This document shows positions 20,253 through 30,301 of a stretch of 38,736 nucleotides of DNA, in pieces. The stretch's first letter is position 1, and each line of letters begins with the position of its first letter. The stretch is from Cytophagales bacterium. Its GTDB lineage: Bacteria; Bacteroidota; Bacteroidia; Cytophagales; Cytophagaceae. The notes beneath the pieces were generated by a model. The model had not been told where the DNA came from. It saw nothing but the letters and a program-made list of their open reading frames with translations, and searched no databases. Location of the stretch: positions 1 to 38,736 of the forward strand of contig JAAFID010000014.1 in assembly GCA_013297765.1 (NCBI GenBank). The letters are read 5' to 3'. The translations under genes were made by a program, and so were the position numbers.

Positions 20253-20909
20253 TTATCCGTTTACTTTTTTATGATCAGCCAAAAACTTAGCAAGTCCGCT
20301 ATCTGTCAAAGGGTGGTTTAGCAATGCTAGCATTACGCTTAGTGGCCCAGTCATTACATTGGCTCCTATTTCTGCACACTTGATCAGGTGCATGGTATGC
20401 CTTACCGATGCCGCTAATATTTGTGTTTCGTAAGCATAGTTGTCATATATCAATCTTATTTGCTCTATCAACTCTAGCCCGTCTTGACTAATGTCATCTA
20501 ACCTGCCAATGAACGGTGATACATAAGTAGCCCCAGCTTTTGCAGCTAATAATGCCTGACCAGCACTAAACACTAGGGTACAATTGGTACGAATGCCACG
20601 GTCAGAAAAATATTTGATGGCTTTGATGCCGTCCTTAATCATCGGTATCTTCACTACTATTTTATCGTCGATAGTTACCAATTCTTCGCCTTCTCTAATC
20701 ATGCCAGCAAGGTCAGTAGCGATTACTTCGGCACTTACATCGCCATCTACAATATCGCATATTGCTTTGTAATGCTTGAACACATTGTCTTTGCCACTAA
20801 TGCCTTCTTTGGCCATAAGCGATGGGTTAGTAGTAACACCATCAAGTACACCTAGTTCGTGTGCTTCTTTTATTTCACTAAGGTTTGCCGTGTCTATAAA
20901 AAATTTCAT
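20253..20909 (-). CDS. fsa: Transaldolase-like fructose-6-phosphate aldolase
   Basis: 218 residues, the short TalC/Fsa subfamily of class I aldolases, which either transfers dihydroxyacetone units (transaldolase in the pentose phosphate pathway) or cleaves fructose-6-phosphate. Seen: [16 protein letters not shown] at the start, GVTTNPSL (24-31), the Schiff-base lysine K87 in [38 protein letters not shown], and ASVRH in the late part. The sequence does not decide between transaldolase and aldolase activity. Monocistronic, with a terminator after it and the SRP RNA gene upstream on the same strand. Confidence 0.92.
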
Positions 20910-21041
20910 AGGATATTTTATTGCTAAAGTTAAATATATAAGTAATGTGCAAAGCTAAGCAAAACAATAAAACTTACTACTTGAAGCTAACAAAAAATCA
21001 ATGGGAAATGTGGAGGTGCGAATAGCAAAAAAATAAAAAAT

Positions 21042-21131
21042 GGCAAACCGAATATCGCACCGCTCAACCGTTTACCCTTGCTTTCTTCCAAACCTGGGGG
21101 ATTCACAGGAGCTGGTCGTACCAGCTTGCCG
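21042..21131 (-). ncRNA. ffs: Signal recognition particle RNA (4.5S-type, small bacterial SRP RNA)
   Basis: RNA of about 90 nt on the minus strand that binds Ffh and targets nascent membrane and secreted proteins. The domain IV core is at 21079-21095: AGGTTTGGAAGAAAGCA, which follows the universal AGGnCCGGAAGGAAGCA pattern. It keeps the GGAA tetraloop and the asymmetric AGCA side, with CC to TT and GG to GA changes that retain pairing. CCC upstream pairs with GGG downstream of the core. The ends close by GGCAAGC (5') with GTTTGCC (3'), 7 bp. A T-rich run (21031-21041) follows, and an exact promoter match precedes it. Ends are estimated to within a few bases. Confidence 0.85.
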
Positions 21132-21134
21132 ATG

Positions 21135-21165
21135 CAAACATAGAATTATAATTGCGATTGTGCAA
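21135..21165 (-). promoter_or_regulatory. Promoter of the SRP RNA gene
   Basis: The minus strand shows TTG at 21163-21165, a 20-base spacer and TATGTTTG at 21135-21142, an exact match to the Bacteroidota -33/-7 consensus. It lies directly before the predicted RNA 5' end. This is the clearest promoter in the window and a useful calibration for the others. Confidence 0.75.
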
Positions 21166-22611: not shown

Positions 22612-22695
22612 TAAGAAGTTGTTCTTTGCTGCCTGAAATAGATTGACATCTATATTTTGTTGCAATTGCCGCTTCCATTATAGAACATAAATTTT

Positions 22696-22733
22696 ACCTC
22701 TGTTCATCCTTTGATGAATAGAGGTGTTTTTTT
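22696..22733 (+). terminator. Intrinsic terminator of carA
   Basis: ACCTCTGTTCATC (22696-22708) pairs with GATGAATAGAGGT (22713-22725), 13 bp with one G-U, around a CTTT loop. G and seven T follow. It lies 85 bases after the carA stop codon. Confidence 0.9.
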
Positions 22734-22823
22734 ATAAGACGAATTCAAGTGGTAAATCCAGCTTTGTTAAAACATTTTCCAGCGAAAATTTCGCAATTAA
22801 TTTTTTTTTCCTAATTTTAAAAT

Positions 22824-22877
22824 ATGAAAAATCTATTGCACAAATCATGGTGGTGGCACAGTAAGCAAATCGCTTAG
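22824..22877 (+). CDS. trpL: trp operon leader peptide with three tandem Trp codons
   Basis: A 17-codon ORF, MKNLLHKSWWWHSKQIA, followed by TAG. Codons 9-11 (22848-22856) are TGG TGG TGG. Trp is the rarest amino acid, so three in a row in a tiny ORF 135 bases before trpE and directly before a terminator is the hallmark of a regulatory leader peptide. The stop codon overlaps the first base of the antiterminator 5' strand (22877-22883). When Trp-tRNA is scarce the ribosome stalls on codons 9-11 and leaves that strand free; when Trp-tRNA is plentiful the ribosome reaches the stop codon and covers it. Function is inferred from this geometry. Confidence 0.88.
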   Translation: MKNLLHKSWWWHSKQIA

Positions 22878-22943
22878 TGAACATCGTAGTTTGTGTAGTT
22901 TAACCAATATCACAAGGCTTGCTGTTCACAGCAGGCTTTTTTT
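22877..22943 (+). promoter_or_regulatory. trp transcription attenuator (mutually exclusive antiterminator and terminator)
   Basis: Terminator: AGGCTTGCTG (22915-22924), loop TTCA, CAGCAGGCTT (22929-22938), 10 bp with two G-U pairs, continuing into a T run to 22943. Antiterminator: GTGAACA (22877-22883) pairs perfectly with TGTTCAC (22923-22929), and inside it TTGTG (22891-22895) pairs with CACAA (22911-22915). The outer antiterminator helix takes up the last two bases of the terminator's 5' arm, its loop and the first base of its 3' arm, so the two folds exclude each other. Together with trpL this is a complete ribosome-mediated attenuator for trpEGDCFBA. Confidence 0.85.
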
Positions 22944-23011: not shown

Positions 23012-24418
23012 ATGTATCATATCAAAACGATATACAAAAAAATGCTGGCCGACATCATTACGCCAGTAAGTATCTATTTAAAATTACGTGACAAATTTCC
23101 CAACAGCATATTGCTTGAGAGCTCTGATTACCACGGAAACGAAGACATATACTCTTACATTTGTTGCCAGCCAGTTGCGGGAATTAAAATAGAAAAAAAT
23201 ATCCTGAGTACTTATTTTCCAGATGGAAAAACAACTGAGGTAAGTATTACAAAAGCAACCAACATACCTAAAGAAATAAGCAATTTTGCTGCTTCGTTTG
23301 ATTCGCCAAAACTAGATTTACCCTTTATGACCGGCGGAATGTTTGGCTATTCTAATTACGATGCTGTGCGGTATTTTGAAGATATAGAAATTGACACTTA
23401 TACCACCGACCGTCGTCGCATTCCAGATTTGCAATACCATGTTTACCAATTTATAATTGTATTTAATCACTTCAACAATGAAGTTTGTATAATTGAAAAT
23501 ACAAGCAGCGAGCCCAGTGTTTCCAATTTAGAATTGTTAGAAAATTATATTTTTCGGAAAGATTTTCCTTCTTACAATTTTGGATTGGTCGATAAGGAAG
23601 AGTCCAATTTTACAGACGAAGAATTTTTAAAAATATTACAAAAAGGAAAAGACCACTGCCATCGTGGCGATGTATTTCAAATAGTATTGTCACGCCGCTT
23701 TTTACGCCAGTACTCAGGCGACGACTTCAATGTTTATCGCAGTTTGAGGTCAATAAATCCATCACCTTATTTGTTTTATTTTGATTATGGCAGTTTCCGA
23801 ATTTTGGGTTCTTCGCCAGAGGCTCAAATAGTGGTAAAAAAGGGCAAAGCCACAATATATCCTATTGCTGGTACTTTTAAGCGGTCGGGCAACGACATTC
23901 AAGATTACGATTTAGCAAAACAATTGCTAGACGACCCAAAGGAAAATGCAGAGCACATCATGCTGGTAGATCTTGCTCGCAATGACCTAAGCCGCCATTG
24001 CCATCATGTGAAGGTAGAGACCTTGAAAGAAGTGCAATATTATTCTCATGTGATACATTTGGTTTCCAAAGTAAGTGGGATTCTTGAAAATCAGGATAGT
24101 TTCATGGACATTGTAGCAGATACTTTCCCAGCAGGTACCCTCTCGGGAGCCCCTAAATACAAGGCGATGGAAATTATTAATCAATTGGAAAATGGGAATC
24201 GTGGTTATTATGGTGGTTGTATTGGATACATTGGGTTTAACAATGAATTCAACAGTGCCATCATGATTCGCTCTATATTGAGCAAAGACAATGTGCTGTA
24301 CTACCAAGCCGGAGCAGGCGTAGTAGCACTTTCAAAAATCGAAAACGAATTGCAAGAAGTAAACAATAAGTTGGCGGCATTAAAAAAAGCAATAGAACTG
24401 GCGGCGGCGGTTAATTAA
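23012..24418 (+). CDS. trpE: Anthranilate synthase component I
   Basis: Converts chorismate to anthranilate using ammonia from TrpG; the first committed step of tryptophan synthesis. 468 residues. The N-terminal domain holds LLESS (34-38), the Trp-binding motif of feedback-sensitive TrpE. The chorismate-binding domain contains GDVFQIVLSRRF, NPSPYLFYFDYG, GSSPEAQI, YPIAGTFKR, HIMLVDLARNDL, PAGTLSGAPKYKAM and YYGGCIGYIGF. The operon is therefore controlled both by attenuation and probably by allosteric feedback. Start at 23012 is the first ATG; M11 (MLADIITPVS) is an alternative. Confidence 0.95.
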   Translation: MYHIKTIYKKMLADIITPVSIYLKLRDKFPNSILLESSDYHGNEDIYSYICCQPVAGIKIEKNILSTYFPDGKTTEVSITKATNIPKEISNFAASFDSPKLDLPFMTGGMFGYSNYDAVRYFEDIEIDTYTTDRRRIPDLQYHVYQFIIVFNHFNNEVCIIENTSSEPSVSNLELLENYIFRKDFPSYNFGLVDKEESNFTDEEFLKILQKGKDHCHRGDVFQIVLSRRFLRQYSGDDFNVYRSLRSINPSPYLFYFDYGSFRILGSSPEAQIVVKKGKATIYPIAGTFKRSGNDIQDYDLAKQLLDDPKENAEHIMLVDLARNDLSRHCHHVKVETLKEVQYYSHVIHLVSKVSGILENQDSFMDIVADTFPAGTLSGAPKYKAMEIINQLENGNRGYYGGCIGYIGFNNEFNSAIMIRSILSKDNVLYYQAGAGVVALSKIENELQEVNNKLAALKKAIELAAAVN

Positions 24419-24448: not shown

Positions 24449-25018
24449 ATGAAACTACTTATTCTCGACAACTACGATTCATTTGTTTACAACATCGTTC
24501 ACATCATACGTGAATTGGGCTTTGGCAAAGAAATGGACATATTTCGCAACGATAAAATTGCCCTTGCCGATGTTGCCAAATACGATAAAATATTGCTTTC
24601 TCCTGGCCCAGGAATTCCTTCTGAAGCTGGCATAATGCAGGATTTGGTAAAACAGTATGGAAGTACAAAAAGTATATTTGGCGTATGCCTCGGTCACCAA
24701 TGTATAGGAGAAGTTTACGGTGCATCACTCACCAATCTGGCAAATGTGTATCATGGTTTAGCCATTCCTACCAATATTCTTTCCGATGATATTTTATTTC
24801 AAAATATTCCTAAAAAAATTACCTGCGGACGCTATCATTCTTGGGCAATAGATCCAAAGTCTGATTTGTCAAATATAACCGTAACTGCTACCGATGATGA
24901 AGGTAATATTATGGCTATAAGGCATAAAAAATACGATGTATGCGGCGTACAGTTTCACCCTGAGTCTGTAATGACAGAACATGGAAAACTGATCATTGAA
25001 AACTGGTTGAACAATTAA
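24449..25018 (+). CDS. trpG: Anthranilate synthase component II (glutamine amidotransferase)
   Basis: Glutaminase subunit supplying ammonia to TrpE. 189 residues of class I amidotransferase: LDNYDSFVYNI at the start, SPGPGIPSEAG (51-61), the nucleophile C80 in GVCLGHQ, RYHSW (128-132), and H170/E172 in QFHPES. It lies 30 bases after trpE and 18 before trpD. In many bacteria this subunit also serves para-aminobenzoate synthesis; no pabB is visible here, so a dual role cannot be judged. Confidence 0.95.
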   Translation: MKLLILDNYDSFVYNIVHIIRELGFGKEMDIFRNDKIALADVAKYDKILLSPGPGIPSEAGIMQDLVKQYGSTKSIFGVCLGHQCIGEVYGASLTNLANVYHGLAIPTNILSDDILFQNIPKKITCGRYHSWAIDPKSDLSNITVTATDDEGNIMAIRHKKYDVCGVQFHPESVMTEHGKLIIENWLNN

Positions 25019-25036
25019 AATATTTCAAAATTTCAA

Positions 25037-26029
25037 ATGAAAGAAACACTACAATTTCTTTTTGAACACCGCACTTTGTCAAAAGAGCAAGCGAAACTTG
25101 CACTAGTAGATTTGGCACTAGGTAAGGCTAACCCAGCTCAAATGGCAGCGTTCATGACCGTGTTTATGATGCGGACTGCTACCGTAGAAGAGCTTGAAGG
25201 CTTTAAAGATGCTATGCTAGAGCTTTGTATTCCTATAGATTTAGCGGCATACAACCCCATAGATTTGTGTGGTACTGGTGGCGATGGCAAAGATACTTTT
25301 AATGTGAGCACTATCGCTTCTTTTGTGGTTGCAGGTGCAGGTGTAAAGGTGGCCAAACATGGCAATTATGGCGTATCGTCGGCGGTGGGGTCTTCTAATA
25401 TTTTAGAACATTTTGGAATTAAATTTTCTAATGAAATAGACGTGCTGAAAAAGCAAATAGAAAATATTGGAATATGCCTGTTACATGCTCCGCTATTTCA
25501 CCCAGCCATGAAGAACGTTGCTCCCATCAGAAAAGAACTGGGGGTGAAAACTTTTTTCAATATGTTGGGACCATTGGTGAACCCATCTCGGCCTAAAAAA
25601 CAAATGGTAGGTGTATTTAGCCTAGAATTGGCAAGGCTCTATGCGTATTTATTTCAAAAAACTTCCACACAATACACCATCTTACATTCGCTTGGTGGCT
25701 ATGATGAAATATCGCTTACCAGTGGAGTAAAAATAATTTCTAACCAATCAGAAAAAATTGTATTTCCAGCCGATTTGGGTTTTGAAAGACTTGATGCAGC
25801 AGCTATAGTCTCAGGTAAAACCATAGAAGCATCGGCAAAAATATTTGCCAATGTGCTGAACAATGAAGCCACTACTGCACAGAAAAATGTAGTATTGGTC
25901 AATGCTGCCATGGCGATACAAACGGCATTGCCACAGCTTTCTTGGGCGGAAGCCGTTGAGAAAGCTAATGAATCATTAACATCAAAAAAAGCACTAAACG
26001 CTTTTACAACATTATTGAATTTTAAGTAA
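25037..26029 (+). CDS. trpD: Anthranilate phosphoribosyltransferase
   Basis: Adds phosphoribose from PRPP to anthranilate. 330 residues with the family signature GTGGDGKDTFNVST (79-92), KHGNYGVSSAVGSSNILEHFG and RKELGVKTFFNMLGPLVNPSRP. Stand-alone (not fused to trpG). Eight bases separate it from trpC. Confidence 0.96.
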   Translation: MKETLQFLFEHRTLSKEQAKLALVDLALGKANPAQMAAFMTVFMMRTATVEELEGFKDAMLELCIPIDLAAYNPIDLCGTGGDGKDTFNVSTIASFVVAGAGVKVAKHGNYGVSSAVGSSNILEHFGIKFSNEIDVLKKQIENIGICLLHAPLFHPAMKNVAPIRKELGVKTFFNMLGPLVNPSRPKKQMVGVFSLELARLYAYLFQKTSTQYTILHSLGGYDEISLTSGVKIISNQSEKIVFPADLGFERLDAAAIVSGKTIEASAKIFANVLNNEATTAQKNVVLVNAAMAIQTALPQLSWAEAVEKANESLTSKKALNAFTTLLNFK

Positions 26030-26037
26030 GCACGACT

Positions 26038-26847
26038 ATGCCACAAAATATATTAGATCAAATCATAGAACGCAAAAAACAAGAAGTAAAAGCTGCTAAA
26101 GCCCGCACTCCAGAGCACATACTGGAGCGTACAGAGGCATTTGGCGAGAAGGCAATATCATTTGCAGCCGCCATTCGCAACCAAGACAAGGCTGGAATTA
26201 TTGCTGAACACAAGCGGCAATCGCCATCAAGAGGAATAATTAACGATAAAGTTACTTTGAAACAAGTAGTGCTGGGGTATCAAAATGCAGGAGCTTCGGC
26301 AGTATCAGTGCTTACCGACACAGATTTTTTTGGTGGTAGCAATAATGATTTGATAGAAGCCCGTGCACTATTGCAACTGCCTATACTTCGCAAAGATTTT
26401 ATCATTTCAGAATATCAAATTTTAGAAGCCAAGGCACTAGGTGCCGACGCAATATTGCTAATAGCTGCGGCATTAAAGCCAAATAAGCTCAACTCGCTTG
26501 CAGCCTACGCCAAAGAAATGGGACTGGAAGTATTGATGGAAGTGCACAACCGTGAAGAACTAGAAAGTAGCCTGAACGACTACATAGACGTGGTAGGCGT
26601 AAATAATCGCAACCTCAAAGATTTCTCGCAAAGTATAGAGACGTCGATTGAATTGGCTGAATTTATTCCGAAACAATTTTTAAAAATCTCTGAAAGCAGC
26701 ATCAGCAAAGCAGATACGATTATGACGTTGCGTAAACATGGGTATAGAGGTTTTTTAATTGGTGAAACATTTATGAAACAACCCAACCCTGGCGAGGCTT
26801 GCAACGAGCTATACGAGCAAGTAAGAGGGTTGCTTATTAAAAATTAA
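26038..26847 (+). CDS. trpC: Indole-3-glycerol phosphate synthase
   Basis: TIM-barrel enzyme closing the indole ring. 269 residues with IIAEHKRQSPSRGII (54-68, conserved E and K), LRKDFII (117-123, the catalytic-acid lysine is K119), LMEVHNREEL (E168), GVNNRNLKDF (187-196) and ISESSI (217-222). Not fused to trpF, which follows after 5 bases. Confidence 0.96.
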   Translation: MPQNILDQIIERKKQEVKAAKARTPEHILERTEAFGEKAISFAAAIRNQDKAGIIAEHKRQSPSRGIINDKVTLKQVVLGYQNAGASAVSVLTDTDFFGGSNNDLIEARALLQLPILRKDFIISEYQILEAKALGADAILLIAAALKPNKLNSLAAYAKEMGLEVLMEVHNREELESSLNDYIDVVGVNNRNLKDFSQSIETSIELAEFIPKQFLKISESSISKADTIMTLRKHGYRGFLIGETFMKQPNPGEACNELYEQVRGLLIKN

Positions 26848-26852
26848 AAACG

Positions 26853-27494
26853 ATGAAATTAAAAGTCTGCGGCCTTAAATATACCTCAAACATTGCTGCA
26901 TTGGCAACAGTGCAGCCCGATTATATGGGCTTTATATTTTACCCCAAATCGAAGCGGTATGTGGGTCTAGAGCTGGCTTTAGAAACATTGGCTGCTGTAC
27001 CCACAACGATTGAAAAAGTAGCCGTATTTGTGAATGAAACTTTAGAAAATATGCTGTTGATTTGTATAAAATATGGATTTAAAACGATACAACTTCATGG
27101 CGACGAAACCACTGATACTGCTGAACAATTGAGCAAATTAGGCTATACCGTTATCAAAGCATTTTCGGTCGATAAAGATTTCGATTTTAAAAATACATTG
27201 CCCTACAGAACTTTCTGTAGCTATTTTTTGTTCGATACCAAAGGCGATGGTTACGGCGGTACAGGGCATCAATTTGACTGGAATTTACTTTGCAATTATG
27301 ACCAAATAACCCCTTACTTTTTAAGTGGGGGAATAGACCTGCAAAATGTAGAAGCCATCAAAAAAATGACTAACTTCAATATACACGCCATCGACATCAA
27401 CAGTAAGTTTGAGCTAGAGCCGGGCTTGAAAGATGTGGAAAAAGTAAGGTTATTCAAACAAAAGATGGATACCGATAAGGTAACAGACCAATAA
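26853..27494 (+). CDS. trpF: Phosphoribosylanthranilate isomerase
   Basis: Amadori isomerase on the path to indole-glycerol phosphate. 213 residues: KVCG with the general base C6, GFIFYPKSKRYV, VAVFVNE, IQLHGDE, the catalytic D128 in LFDTKGDGYGGTG, FLSGGI and a phosphate-binding end AIDINSKFE. The last motif departs slightly from the usual D-x-S-S-G-V-E. Short gap to trpC; 41 bases before trpB. Confidence 0.94.
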   Translation: MKLKVCGLKYTSNIAALATVQPDYMGFIFYPKSKRYVGLELALETLAAVPTTIEKVAVFVNETLENMLLICIKYGFKTIQLHGDETTDTAEQLSKLGYTVIKAFSVDKDFDFKNTLPYRTFCSYFLFDTKGDGYGGTGHQFDWNLLCNYDQITPYFLSGGIDLQNVEAIKKMTNFNIHAIDINSKFELEPGLKDVEKVRLFKQKMDTDKVTDQ

Positions 27495-27535
27495 TAATTT
27501 CAGTTAAAAAACACTAGCACTACAATAAATAGACT

Positions 27536-28729
27536 ATGCAATACTCAGTAAACGAAAAAGGATATTACGGAAATTTTGGCGGTGCATATATCCCCGAAAT
27601 GCTGTACCCAAATGTGGAAGAACTGCAACAAAAATATTTGCAAATAATATACGAGCCATCGTTTCAAGCAGAGTTTCAGCAATTGCTGGAAGACTATGTG
27701 GGGCGGCCTACACCACTGTTTTATGCTAAGCGACTTTCTGAAAAATACCAAACAAATATTTACCTGAAAAGGGAAGACTTGTGCCATACCGGTGCTCATA
27801 AAATCAACAATACCATAGGGCAAATATTGCTTGCCAAGCGATTAGGTAAAACCAGAATAATTGCTGAAACTGGGGCTGGGCAACACGGGGTTGCTACTGC
27901 TACAGTGTGTGCATTGATGGGCTACGAGTGTATTGTGTACATGGGTGCAGTGGATATTGAGCGGCAAAAACCTAATGTAGAGCGTATGCGGATGCTAGGG
28001 GCAGAAGTGCGACCTGCAGTTTCAGGTAGCCAAACGTTGAAAGACGCCACCAACGAAGCCATCAGAGACTGGATAAATAATCCTGCAGATACCCATTACA
28101 TCATAGGTTCTGTGGTTGGGCCTCATCCTTATCCTGACATGGTCGCGAGATTTCAATCAGTGATAAGTGAGGAAATTCAAGAGCAATTACTAGAAAAAAC
28201 GGGGCATTCAAATCCCAATTATGTAATAGCCTGTGTAGGCGGCGGCAGCAATGCGGCTGGTGCATTTTACCATTATCTTGACCAATTGGACGTAAAATTG
28301 ATAGCCGTAGAAGCTGCTGGGAAAGGCGTAAATAGTGGGTTTTCGGCAGCTACCACGTATTTGGGCAAACCTGGAATTATTCACGGAAGTAAAACCTTGC
28401 TAATGCAAACCGAAGATGGGCAAATAGTAGAACCACATTCCATATCCGCAGGGTTAGACTACCCAGGCATAGGACCTATTCACGCCCATTTGTTCGACTC
28501 TGGCCGAGGAGAATTTTTCAGCATCACCGACGAAGAAGCATTCAAAGCCGCCATGATGTTGAGCCGTACCGAGGGCATTATTCCTGCACTAGAAACAGCT
28601 CATGCAATTGCAGTATTGGAAAATATAAGTTTCAAGAAAGACGATGTGGTCGTTATTAATCTTTCTGGCAGGGGCGATAAAGATTTAATGACGTATATCA
28701 CCAGAAAAGAAGAGTTTATGAGCAAGTAG
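27536..28729 (+). CDS. trpB: Tryptophan synthase beta chain
   Basis: PLP enzyme joining indole and serine. 397 residues, the TrpB1 type that pairs with Trp[14 protein letters not shown] at the start, PLP lysine K89 in HTGAHKINN, the catalytic E111 in [17 protein letters not shown] for the PLP phosphate, GLDYPGIGP, and LSGRGDKD at the end. Directly followed not by trpA, as in most operons, but by a coiled-coil PD-(D/E)XK-like gene. Confidence 0.96.
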
Positions 28730-28787
28730 ATGAACTCAGTTTTGTAATGAATAAAAATATTTGAAAAATTAAAAAAGAATAAAAGCC

Positions 28788-29441
28788 ATGGCAGCAATCA
28801 CTTATGAAAGCGTAATGGAGTTAATCCAAAAAAGCACTGAAAATATAGATCGTGTCTCTGATAATTTATCTCAACGGATTACTGAAACGAATGATCGATT
28901 AACTAAGCAAATTACTGAAACGAATGATCGATTAACTAGAAGCATAGAGCAAGTTTCTAGAAATATGGACAGGCGGAATGATGAACTTAACAAAAAAATA
29001 AGCGAATATGGTGATACGCTAGGGCGACTAGCTGAAGAGCAGGTAAAAGAAGATTTGGTAAACAAATTTGAAAAATGGGGCATTCCCATACACACCTACA
29101 CCACTCACCTAGTGCACATGGACAAGAAAGGAATTTTTAAATATGAAATTGACATTTTGCTTTACAATACCGATTATGTAGTAGCCATAGAAGTAAAAAA
29201 TCAATTAAAAAAAGACCATATTGATGAGCATTTGGCAAGAATTAAAAAAATTCAAGAACACCCTATGTCAGGTATTGAAGGCAAAATAATATTAGGTGGT
29301 GTAGCCAGTATGATTATTCCTGAACATTTGAATGAATACGCACAATCCAAAGGTTTATTTTTAATAAAGCCAAGTGGAGAAATGATGAAAATTGCCAATA
29401 ACAAAAAAACCTTTAAGCCTAAAGAATGGCGAGTAAAATAA
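28788..29441 (+). CDS. Coiled-coil protein with PD-(D/E)XK nuclease-like domain, inside the trp operon
   Basis: 217 residues. Residues 10-85 form a polar coiled coil with an internal 11-residue repeat (ITETNDRLTKQ / ITETNDRLTRS). Residues 84-195 look like a PD-(D/E)XK nuclease-fold domain: E84 or E85, D122 in YEIDILL, then E135-x-K137 in AIEVKNQ. The motif spacing fits the restriction-endonuclease-like fold, and the layout resembles DUF3782-type proteins. Whether it cuts DNA is unknown. It lies in the same orientation 58 bases after trpB and 68 before trpA, so it must be carried on the trp mRNA. It has no known role in tryptophan synthesis and looks like an inserted gene. Confidence 0.75.
   Translation: MAAITYESVMELIQKSTENIDRVSDNLSQRITETNDRLTKQITETNDRLTRSIEQVSRNMDRRNDELNKKISEYGDTLGRLAEEQVKEDLVNKFEKWGIPIHTYTTHLVHMDKKGIFKYEIDILLYNTDYVVAIEVKNQLKKDHIDEHLARIKKIQEHPMSGIEGKIILGGVASMIIPEHLNEYAQSKGLFLIKPSGEMMKIANNKKTFKPKEWRVK
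28878..28938 (+). repeat. Tandem repeat in the coiled coil (period 33 bp)
   Basis: A 28-bp unit at 28878-28905 is repeated exactly at 28911-28938, encoding ITETNDRLT twice. Perfect identity at DNA level indicates a recent duplication; such repeats can gain or lose copies in steps of 11 residues and stay in frame. Confidence 0.85.
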
Positions 29442-29509
29442 TTTCTAACACATTAAATTCTATTTAGAACCACTTACCATTTTTTCTCTTACACATTTAA
29501 CAGCGTAAC

Positions 29510-30301
29510 ATGATGCATACCCAAACTAAAATAGCCAATAGATTAACCACACTTTTTGAAACCAAAAAGAAGAATTTATTAAACATATATTTCACTGCTG
29601 GGTTTCCAGCCCTAGAAGATACTGTAACTATTCTTAAAGCCCTAGAAAAATCAGGGGTAGATATGATAGAGATAGGCATGCCATTCTCTGACCCATTGGC
29701 CGATGGGCCTACCATTCAACAAAGTAGCGAGGTGGCACTAGAAAATGGAATGTCTATTAAAAAATTATTTGAACAATTGGCTGGTATTCGTGAGCATATT
29801 TCTGTACCCATTATGCTCATGGGCTACCTCAACCCTGTGATGCAATATGGTGTAGCAGCTTTCTGCCGCAAAGCTGCCGAGGTGGGTGTCGATGGGTTGA
29901 TATTGCCCGATTTGCCTTTTGATGAATTCAATGAATTTTACAGCAGTTATTTTGAAGAAAATAACTTGTCAAATGTATTTTTGGTTACTCCAGAAACGTC
30001 TGATAAGCGACTGAAACAAATTGATGAGAGTGCTTCAGGCTTTATCTACGCCGTATCTACCAACAGCACTACTGGTGGTGCCAAAGATTTGAAGCAAGCA
30101 GAAGGTTATTTTCAAAAGCTAAAAGATGCCAATTTGAAAAATCCATTAATGATAGGTTTCAACATCAATAATAAAGAGAATTTTGATTTTGCCTGCCATT
30201 ATGCAAGTGGTGCTATCATTGGCAGTGCGTTTGTAAAAGCTATTAAAGACAGCAATAATTTGGAAAATGATGTTCAAAATTTCGTGGCTGGTCTAAGATA
30301 A
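29510..30301 (+). CDS. trpA: Tryptophan synthase alpha chain
   Basis: Cleaves indole-glycerol phosphate and channels indole to TrpB. 263 residues: YFTAGFP, the catalytic E54 in IEIGMPFSDPLADGPTIQ with D65, PIMLMGYLNPV, GVDGLILPDLPFDE, and AVSTNSTTGG. Two adjacent ATGs are possible starts. Last gene of the operon, followed by a long hairpin terminator. Confidence 0.95.
   Translation: MMHTQTKIANRLTTLFETKKKNLLNIYFTAGFPALEDTVTILKALEKSGVDMIEIGMPFSDPLADGPTIQQSSEVALENGMSIKKLFEQLAGIREHISVPIMLMGYLNPVMQYGVAAFCRKAAEVGVDGLILPDLPFDEFNEFYSSYFEENNLSNVFLVTPETSDKRLKQIDESASGFIYAVSTNSTTGGAKDLKQAEGYFQKLKDANLKNPLMIGFNINNKENFDFACHYASGAIIGSAFVKAIKDSNNLENDVQNFVAGLR

Follow-up and report, generated by a model that had tools for sequence, protein, structure and literature searches.

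Between carA and trpE, the window (the whole stretch of 38,736 nt that was analysed) contains a short ORF with three consecutive Trp codons, followed by a hairpin and a run of T residues. This arrangement raises the question whether the trp operon is controlled by translation of a leader peptide, and whether such control would be new for the Bacteroidota. From the analyses presented here, the element very probably serves the trp operon as a ribosome-mediated transcription attenuator and is related to the Rfam family RF01692 as a divergent homologue. The switch is of a known kind: the observation is confirmed, its interpretation is supported, and its novelty is low.

The leader and its predicted switch

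The features of the locus are listed below with coordinates, strand and basis of assignment.

up to 22611, +, carA (end of the gene), confirmed upstream of the leader by Pfam
22695..22733, +, intrinsic terminator of carA, hairpin ACCTCTGTTCATC/GATGAATAGAGGT followed by TTTTTTT
22785..22819, +, putative promoter for the Bacteroidota primary sigma factor, degenerate in the window
22824..22877, +, leader peptide ORF of 17 codons, MKNLLHKSWWWHSKQIA and stop, from the sequence and the WWW mini-ORF conserved in relatives
22835..22845, +, strand 1, protector hairpin, pairing with 22889-22899 in the MFE and centroid folds
22848..22856, +, three tandem Trp codons (codons 9-11), the sensing codons, from the sequence and relatives
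22877..22899, +, strand 2, with GTGAACA and TTGTG; 22889-22899 pairs with strand 1
22911..22929, +, strand 3, 3' side of the antiterminator, with CACAA and TGTTCAC
22914..22943, +, intrinsic terminator, 11-bp hairpin (22914-22939) and then seven T
23012..24418, +, trpE, anthranilate synthase component I (Pfam PF00425 and PF04715), the first controlled gene
24449..30301, +, remaining operon: trpG, trpD, trpC, trpF, trpB, an unrelated ORF and trpA (Pfam, ORF list)

Read directly from the sequence, the leader ORF between carA and trpE starts with ATG at 22824 and ends with TAG at 22875-22877. The stop codon shares one base with GTGAACA (22877-22883), which is the exact reverse complement of TGTTCAC (22923-22929), and TTGTG (22891-22895) and CACAA (22911-22915) constitute the inner helix of the antiterminator. 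The WWW ORF and these two pairings, described in an earlier note on this DNA, were borne out, as were the coordinates given there for the ORF and for GTGAACA/TGTTCAC. Regarding the terminator, that note was right about the hairpin, the T run (22937-22943) and the 68 bases to the start of trpE, but not about a stem of 10 bp at 22915-22938, since in the fold 11 bp are formed between 22914-22924 and 22929-22939 around a loop of 4 nt. Strand 3 overlaps the 5' arm and the loop of this terminator. The 120-nt region has an MFE of -39.1 kcal/mol (z = -4.8), none of 200 dinucleotide shuffles being as stable, and a WWW mini-ORF did not arise in any of 5000 dinucleotide shuffles of the upstream region.

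Because carA possesses its own terminator, it is separated from the trp operon. Downstream of the leader, Pfam searches yielded the gene order trpE-G-D-C-F-B-A. The seven genes of the operon described earlier as trpEGDCFBA are thus present in that order, but the description omitted the unrelated ORF between trpB and trpA. This ORF (28788-29441, 217 aa) interrupts the operon, its N-terminal half is coiled-coil-like, and a Pfam search with it gave nothing over the cut-off. On the other side of carA, a small SRP RNA (RF04183) is located at 21038-21137 on the minus strand, next to the gene at 20253-20909, which we take to be transaldolase-like from our own reading of the sequence.

Judging from the sequence, the switch most likely shuts down the operon under an ample supply of tryptophan. 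RNA polymerase would start just upstream of the leader ORF. With charged tRNA-Trp in plentiful supply, the ribosome would reach the stop codon and cover GTGAACA, strand 3 would join the terminator, and transcription would end near 22943. When charged tRNA-Trp runs short, the ribosome would halt on the WWW codons and leave GTGAACA free as strand 3 emerges. The antiterminator would then form before the 3' arm of the terminator exists, and trpE to trpA would be transcribed. In an untranslated leader, hairpin 1:2 would occupy strand 2 and the terminator would win.

Folding of the window with the positions of a ribosome masked agrees with this scheme and with the earlier proposal that stalling at the Trp codons frees the antiterminator strand, which is covered at the stop codon. 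Without a ribosome, hairpin 1:2 forms with a probability of about 0.97. For the full-length RNA, the terminator has a probability of 0.96 without a ribosome and of 0.93 with a ribosome at the stop codon, and values of 0.51 and 0.36 were obtained with the ribosome on the second and third Trp codon, respectively. On the first Trp codon the value is still 0.83, so the effective codons are the second and the third. When the RNA ends at 22929, the probability of the antiterminator is 0.99 with the ribosome on either of these two codons and 0.00 with the ribosome at the stop. In silico, the choice between a mutually exclusive antiterminator and terminator is therefore set by the position of the ribosome, as in ribosome-mediated transcription attenuators.

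The same procedure was applied to homologues of the leader. The 5' arm of the terminator was more sequestered with a ribosome stalled on Trp than with one at the stop position in 68 of 73 cases (mean 0.62 versus 0.18). At full-length equilibrium, most homologues favour the terminator even when a ribosome occupies the Trp position (median probability 0.96 versus 0.97), and a shift of more than 0.2 was seen in only 10 of the 73. Equilibrium folding of the full-length RNA alone shows no switch for most of them, and since it prefers the terminator, the switch has to be kinetic, operating during transcription.

Relation to RF01692 and other trp leaders

RF01692, "Bacteroidete tryptophan peptide leader RNA", goes back to the Bacteroid-trp motif described by Weinberg et al. 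(2010, PMC2864571). The window matches this model over its full length (1-131, E 0.023-0.054) with 32.6 bits, below the curated cut-off of 49, and by the gathering cut-off, the formal criterion for annotation, it is not a member. At this score, the element is missed by automatic annotation; a default-cut-off Rfam scan of the window reported only an SRP RNA, and RF01692 was found by searching relatives and relaxing the threshold. RF01692 exceeds the cut-off with up to 67.9 bits at orthologous loci in genomes of the same family, and with up to 88.5 bits in genomes from a different family of the class. A second model, R1, was built only from 17 homologues passing RF01692, none of them from the genus of the window. 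R1 scored 78.3 bits on the window (E 1.6e-12 genome-wide), its best match in the genome, and 86.8 bits on a relative of the same genus. By this independent profile, the window is homologous to accepted members of the family. Further R1 matches in the genome (C10, C13) were rejected as leaders; they are plain terminators, one of them just past a gene end.

The window also shares the arrangement of the family. Its element is situated immediately 5' of a trp biosynthesis gene, here trpE, in a member of the Bacteroidota with relatives among Cytophagales MAGs, and contains a short ORF with tandem Trp codons, an ATG-AAA-rich start, UGG repeats inside a hairpin, and a terminator beginning with AAGGCUUG. 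Unlike the description given here, the Rfam model ends in the 5' arm of the terminator and does not include the switch between antiterminator and terminator. By comparison with these models, the element is a divergent RF01692 homologue, formally below the Rfam cut-off and homologous according to the independent model. Attenuation had been regarded as surprising for Bacteroidota in the earlier note. This view is not supported, as RF01692 is the same element, catalogued in 2010, and as a study of Flavobacterium psychrophilum, a member of the same phylum, reports from RNA-seq data leader-peptide attenuators before operons for amino-acid biosynthesis (PMC9723704). In the literature searched, which covered few subscription journals, no experimental test of a Bacteroidota trp attenuator was found. 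An older computational survey (Lopatovskaya et al. 2010) is cited in PMC4833913.

The Trp_leader model of Proteobacteria (RF00513) gave 21.0 bits on the window, below its cut-off of 41, and no match in the genome. The E. coli trp leader follows the same logic as the window, with tandem Trp codons, hairpins 1:2, 2:3 and 3:4, and an intrinsic terminator before trpE. Unlike in E. coli, TrpR is missing from the genome, and the leader ORF probably has little or no 5' UTR and no Shine-Dalgarno sequence in front of it.

Conservation in the phylum and alternative explanations

Upstream regions of trpE were collected from named records and from genomes sharing the genus, family, order, class or phylum of the window, resulting in 96 distinct sequences that were searched for mini-ORFs within 300 nt, with 3840 shuffled sequences as control. 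A mini-ORF with WWW was detected in 65 of the 96 regions (0% of the shuffles) and one with WW in 75 (0.6% of the shuffles). At least five of the 21 regions devoid of a WW ORF have other Trp-rich mini-ORFs, in which WRW, WLW, WFWQW or WAWFW occur (in VWRWQ, TWLWQ, FWFWQW and TWAWFWF). In one locus, L030, the terminator GGCTTGCTGTTCGCAGTAAGCC is kept 5' of trpE together with a mini-ORF containing one Trp codon (HCWRIF); judged by its sequence, this is perhaps a decaying attenuator.

A terminator hairpin with a T run is present 3' of 73 of 77 WW leaders, and overall peptides and hairpins vary widely between lineages. The switch pairing is GUGAACA/UGUUCAC in the order of the window, UCGUGA/UCACGA in Flavobacteriaceae-like genomes, and GGCGAUAAGUC/GACUUAUCGC in further lineages. 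In 32 lineages with unlike terminator sequences, leaders pair with their own terminator arm at -16.2 kcal/mol on average, versus -10.7 with the arms of others, an advantage reached in none of 20,000 permutations. In these sequence comparisons, such a preference is covariation of the switch, beyond that of a hairpin. The pairing of the window ranks eighth of the 32 and is not uniquely good, since GTGAACA/TGTTCAC is widespread in the order. The two comparisons proposed in the earlier note came out in its favour: tandem TGG codons are conserved phylum-wide before trpE, and the strands of antiterminator and terminator co-vary from lineage to lineage.

RF01692 exceeded its cut-off in 5 of 59 genomes of the order and in 12 of 158 genomes of the phylum, and in the latter sample nothing was detected outside the class. 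A WW leader is found in 10 of 15 sampled genomes from other classes of the phylum. Given that a WW leader precedes most of the trpE genes sampled, the RF01692 model is too narrow. A weak match to RF01692 (40.9 bits) in genome G193, at C8:40166-40295 on the minus strand and apart from the trpE of that genome (C1), may be a second Trp leader.

These data bear on other explanations of the locus. The mini-ORF might act mainly through translational coupling, Rho or transcript stability instead of an intrinsic terminator, as reinitiation after a leader ORF close to a gene start can increase translation of the downstream gene (PMC4833913). The leader ORF ends 134 nt from trpE, compared with the 11-14 bp reported for Bacteroidetes in the same study, and an intrinsic terminator with a T run intervenes, as in nearly all WW leaders, which makes this mode of action highly improbable. 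A constitutive intergenic terminator beside a chance ORF, serving no regulation by tryptophan, would account for the hairpin and the T run, and the plain terminators among the other R1 matches of the genome fit it. This explanation is likewise highly improbable, as the WWW mini-ORF is conserved before trpE and absent from the shuffles, as strand 2 of the leader changes together with the terminator in 32 lineages, and as a constitutive terminator would serve no purpose before trpE. Trp genes in Bacillus and enterobacteria are controlled by TRAP, TrpR or T-boxes, but such a sensor acting on this leader is extremely unlikely, since none would need tandem Trp codons, since the genome lacks TrpR (PF01371; E. 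coli control detected) and TRAP (PF02081; Bacillus subtilis control detected), and since no T-box or other Rfam family exceeded its cut-off in the carA-trpE intergenic region. The suggestion that this lineage would control its trp operon by leader-peptide attenuation is supported by conservation, co-change of the strands and masked folding.

Start of the leader transcript and significance

Upstream of the leader, a -33-like AAAATTTC(G) is located at 22785-22793 and a -7-like TAATTTTA at 22812-22819, the latter with one mismatch to TAnnTTTG and 4 nt before the leader ATG. Both agree in place and spacing with CAAATTTG...TATATTTA in a member of the sister genus (L002), the degenerate TAATTTTA aligning with TATATTTA. 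An exact TAnnTTTG was found within 40 nt in 40 of 75 leaders (shuffle rate 4.8%), in all 40 of them 2-25 nt before an in-frame ATG, and TTG or TTTG usually lies 21-24 nt further upstream. Both the consensus of this box and its position at -12 to -5 come from F. psychrophilum (PMC9723704). With the same placement, 18 of the 40 leaders would have a 5' UTR of at most 6 nt, five of them none at all; in B. thetaiotaomicron only about 3.7% of 5' UTRs are shorter than 10 nt (PMC7366714). Leaderless trp attenuators with mapped transcript starts are known from Sinorhizobium meliloti (trpL, PMC7298713) and Streptomyces lividans (trpL1, MFAHSTRNWWWTAHPAAH, PMC8079986). Like the window, both have a tandem-Trp leader before trpE and a start at or near the leader AUG, but they belong to other phyla, and the start in the window is predicted from the promoter motif. 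Tentatively, and with somewhat less than even confidence, it is proposed that Bacteroidota trp attenuators have near-leaderless mini-ORFs, with the -7 box TAnnTTTG 4-10 nt before AUG in many lineages and the first ribosome loading at the 5' end without a Shine-Dalgarno sequence, and that they reach into classes in which RF01692 was not detected.

In two loci from one genus of the same order, a tRNA-Trp (CCA) gene lies between the terminator of the attenuator and trpE (L025, 1388-1461; L024, 2956-3029). Another tRNA-Trp gene, about 74% identical, is present elsewhere in the same genomes near a tRNA-Thr gene. The sensor's own tRNA would here come under control of the attenuator. A mini-ORF, MQSNFILSSRLIVVSIAYR, was observed about 80 nt before ilvD in L114 (reverse strand, 1257-1313; own genome, C224). 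Its run of Ile, Leu and Val codons suggests a branched-chain leader, and no clear terminator was seen 3' of it. No evidence for leaders was obtained at the loci of HisG and homoserine dehydrogenase.

The predicted near-leaderless mini-ORFs, the spread to other classes and the second tRNA-Trp gene are less documented aspects of these leaders. In a phylum whose promoters are unusual and whose Shine-Dalgarno sites are few, the locus offers a trp attenuator that is clean and testable. RF01692 fails to find the majority of its own relatives, and an improved model would allow trp control to be annotated in a large part of the Bacteroidota.
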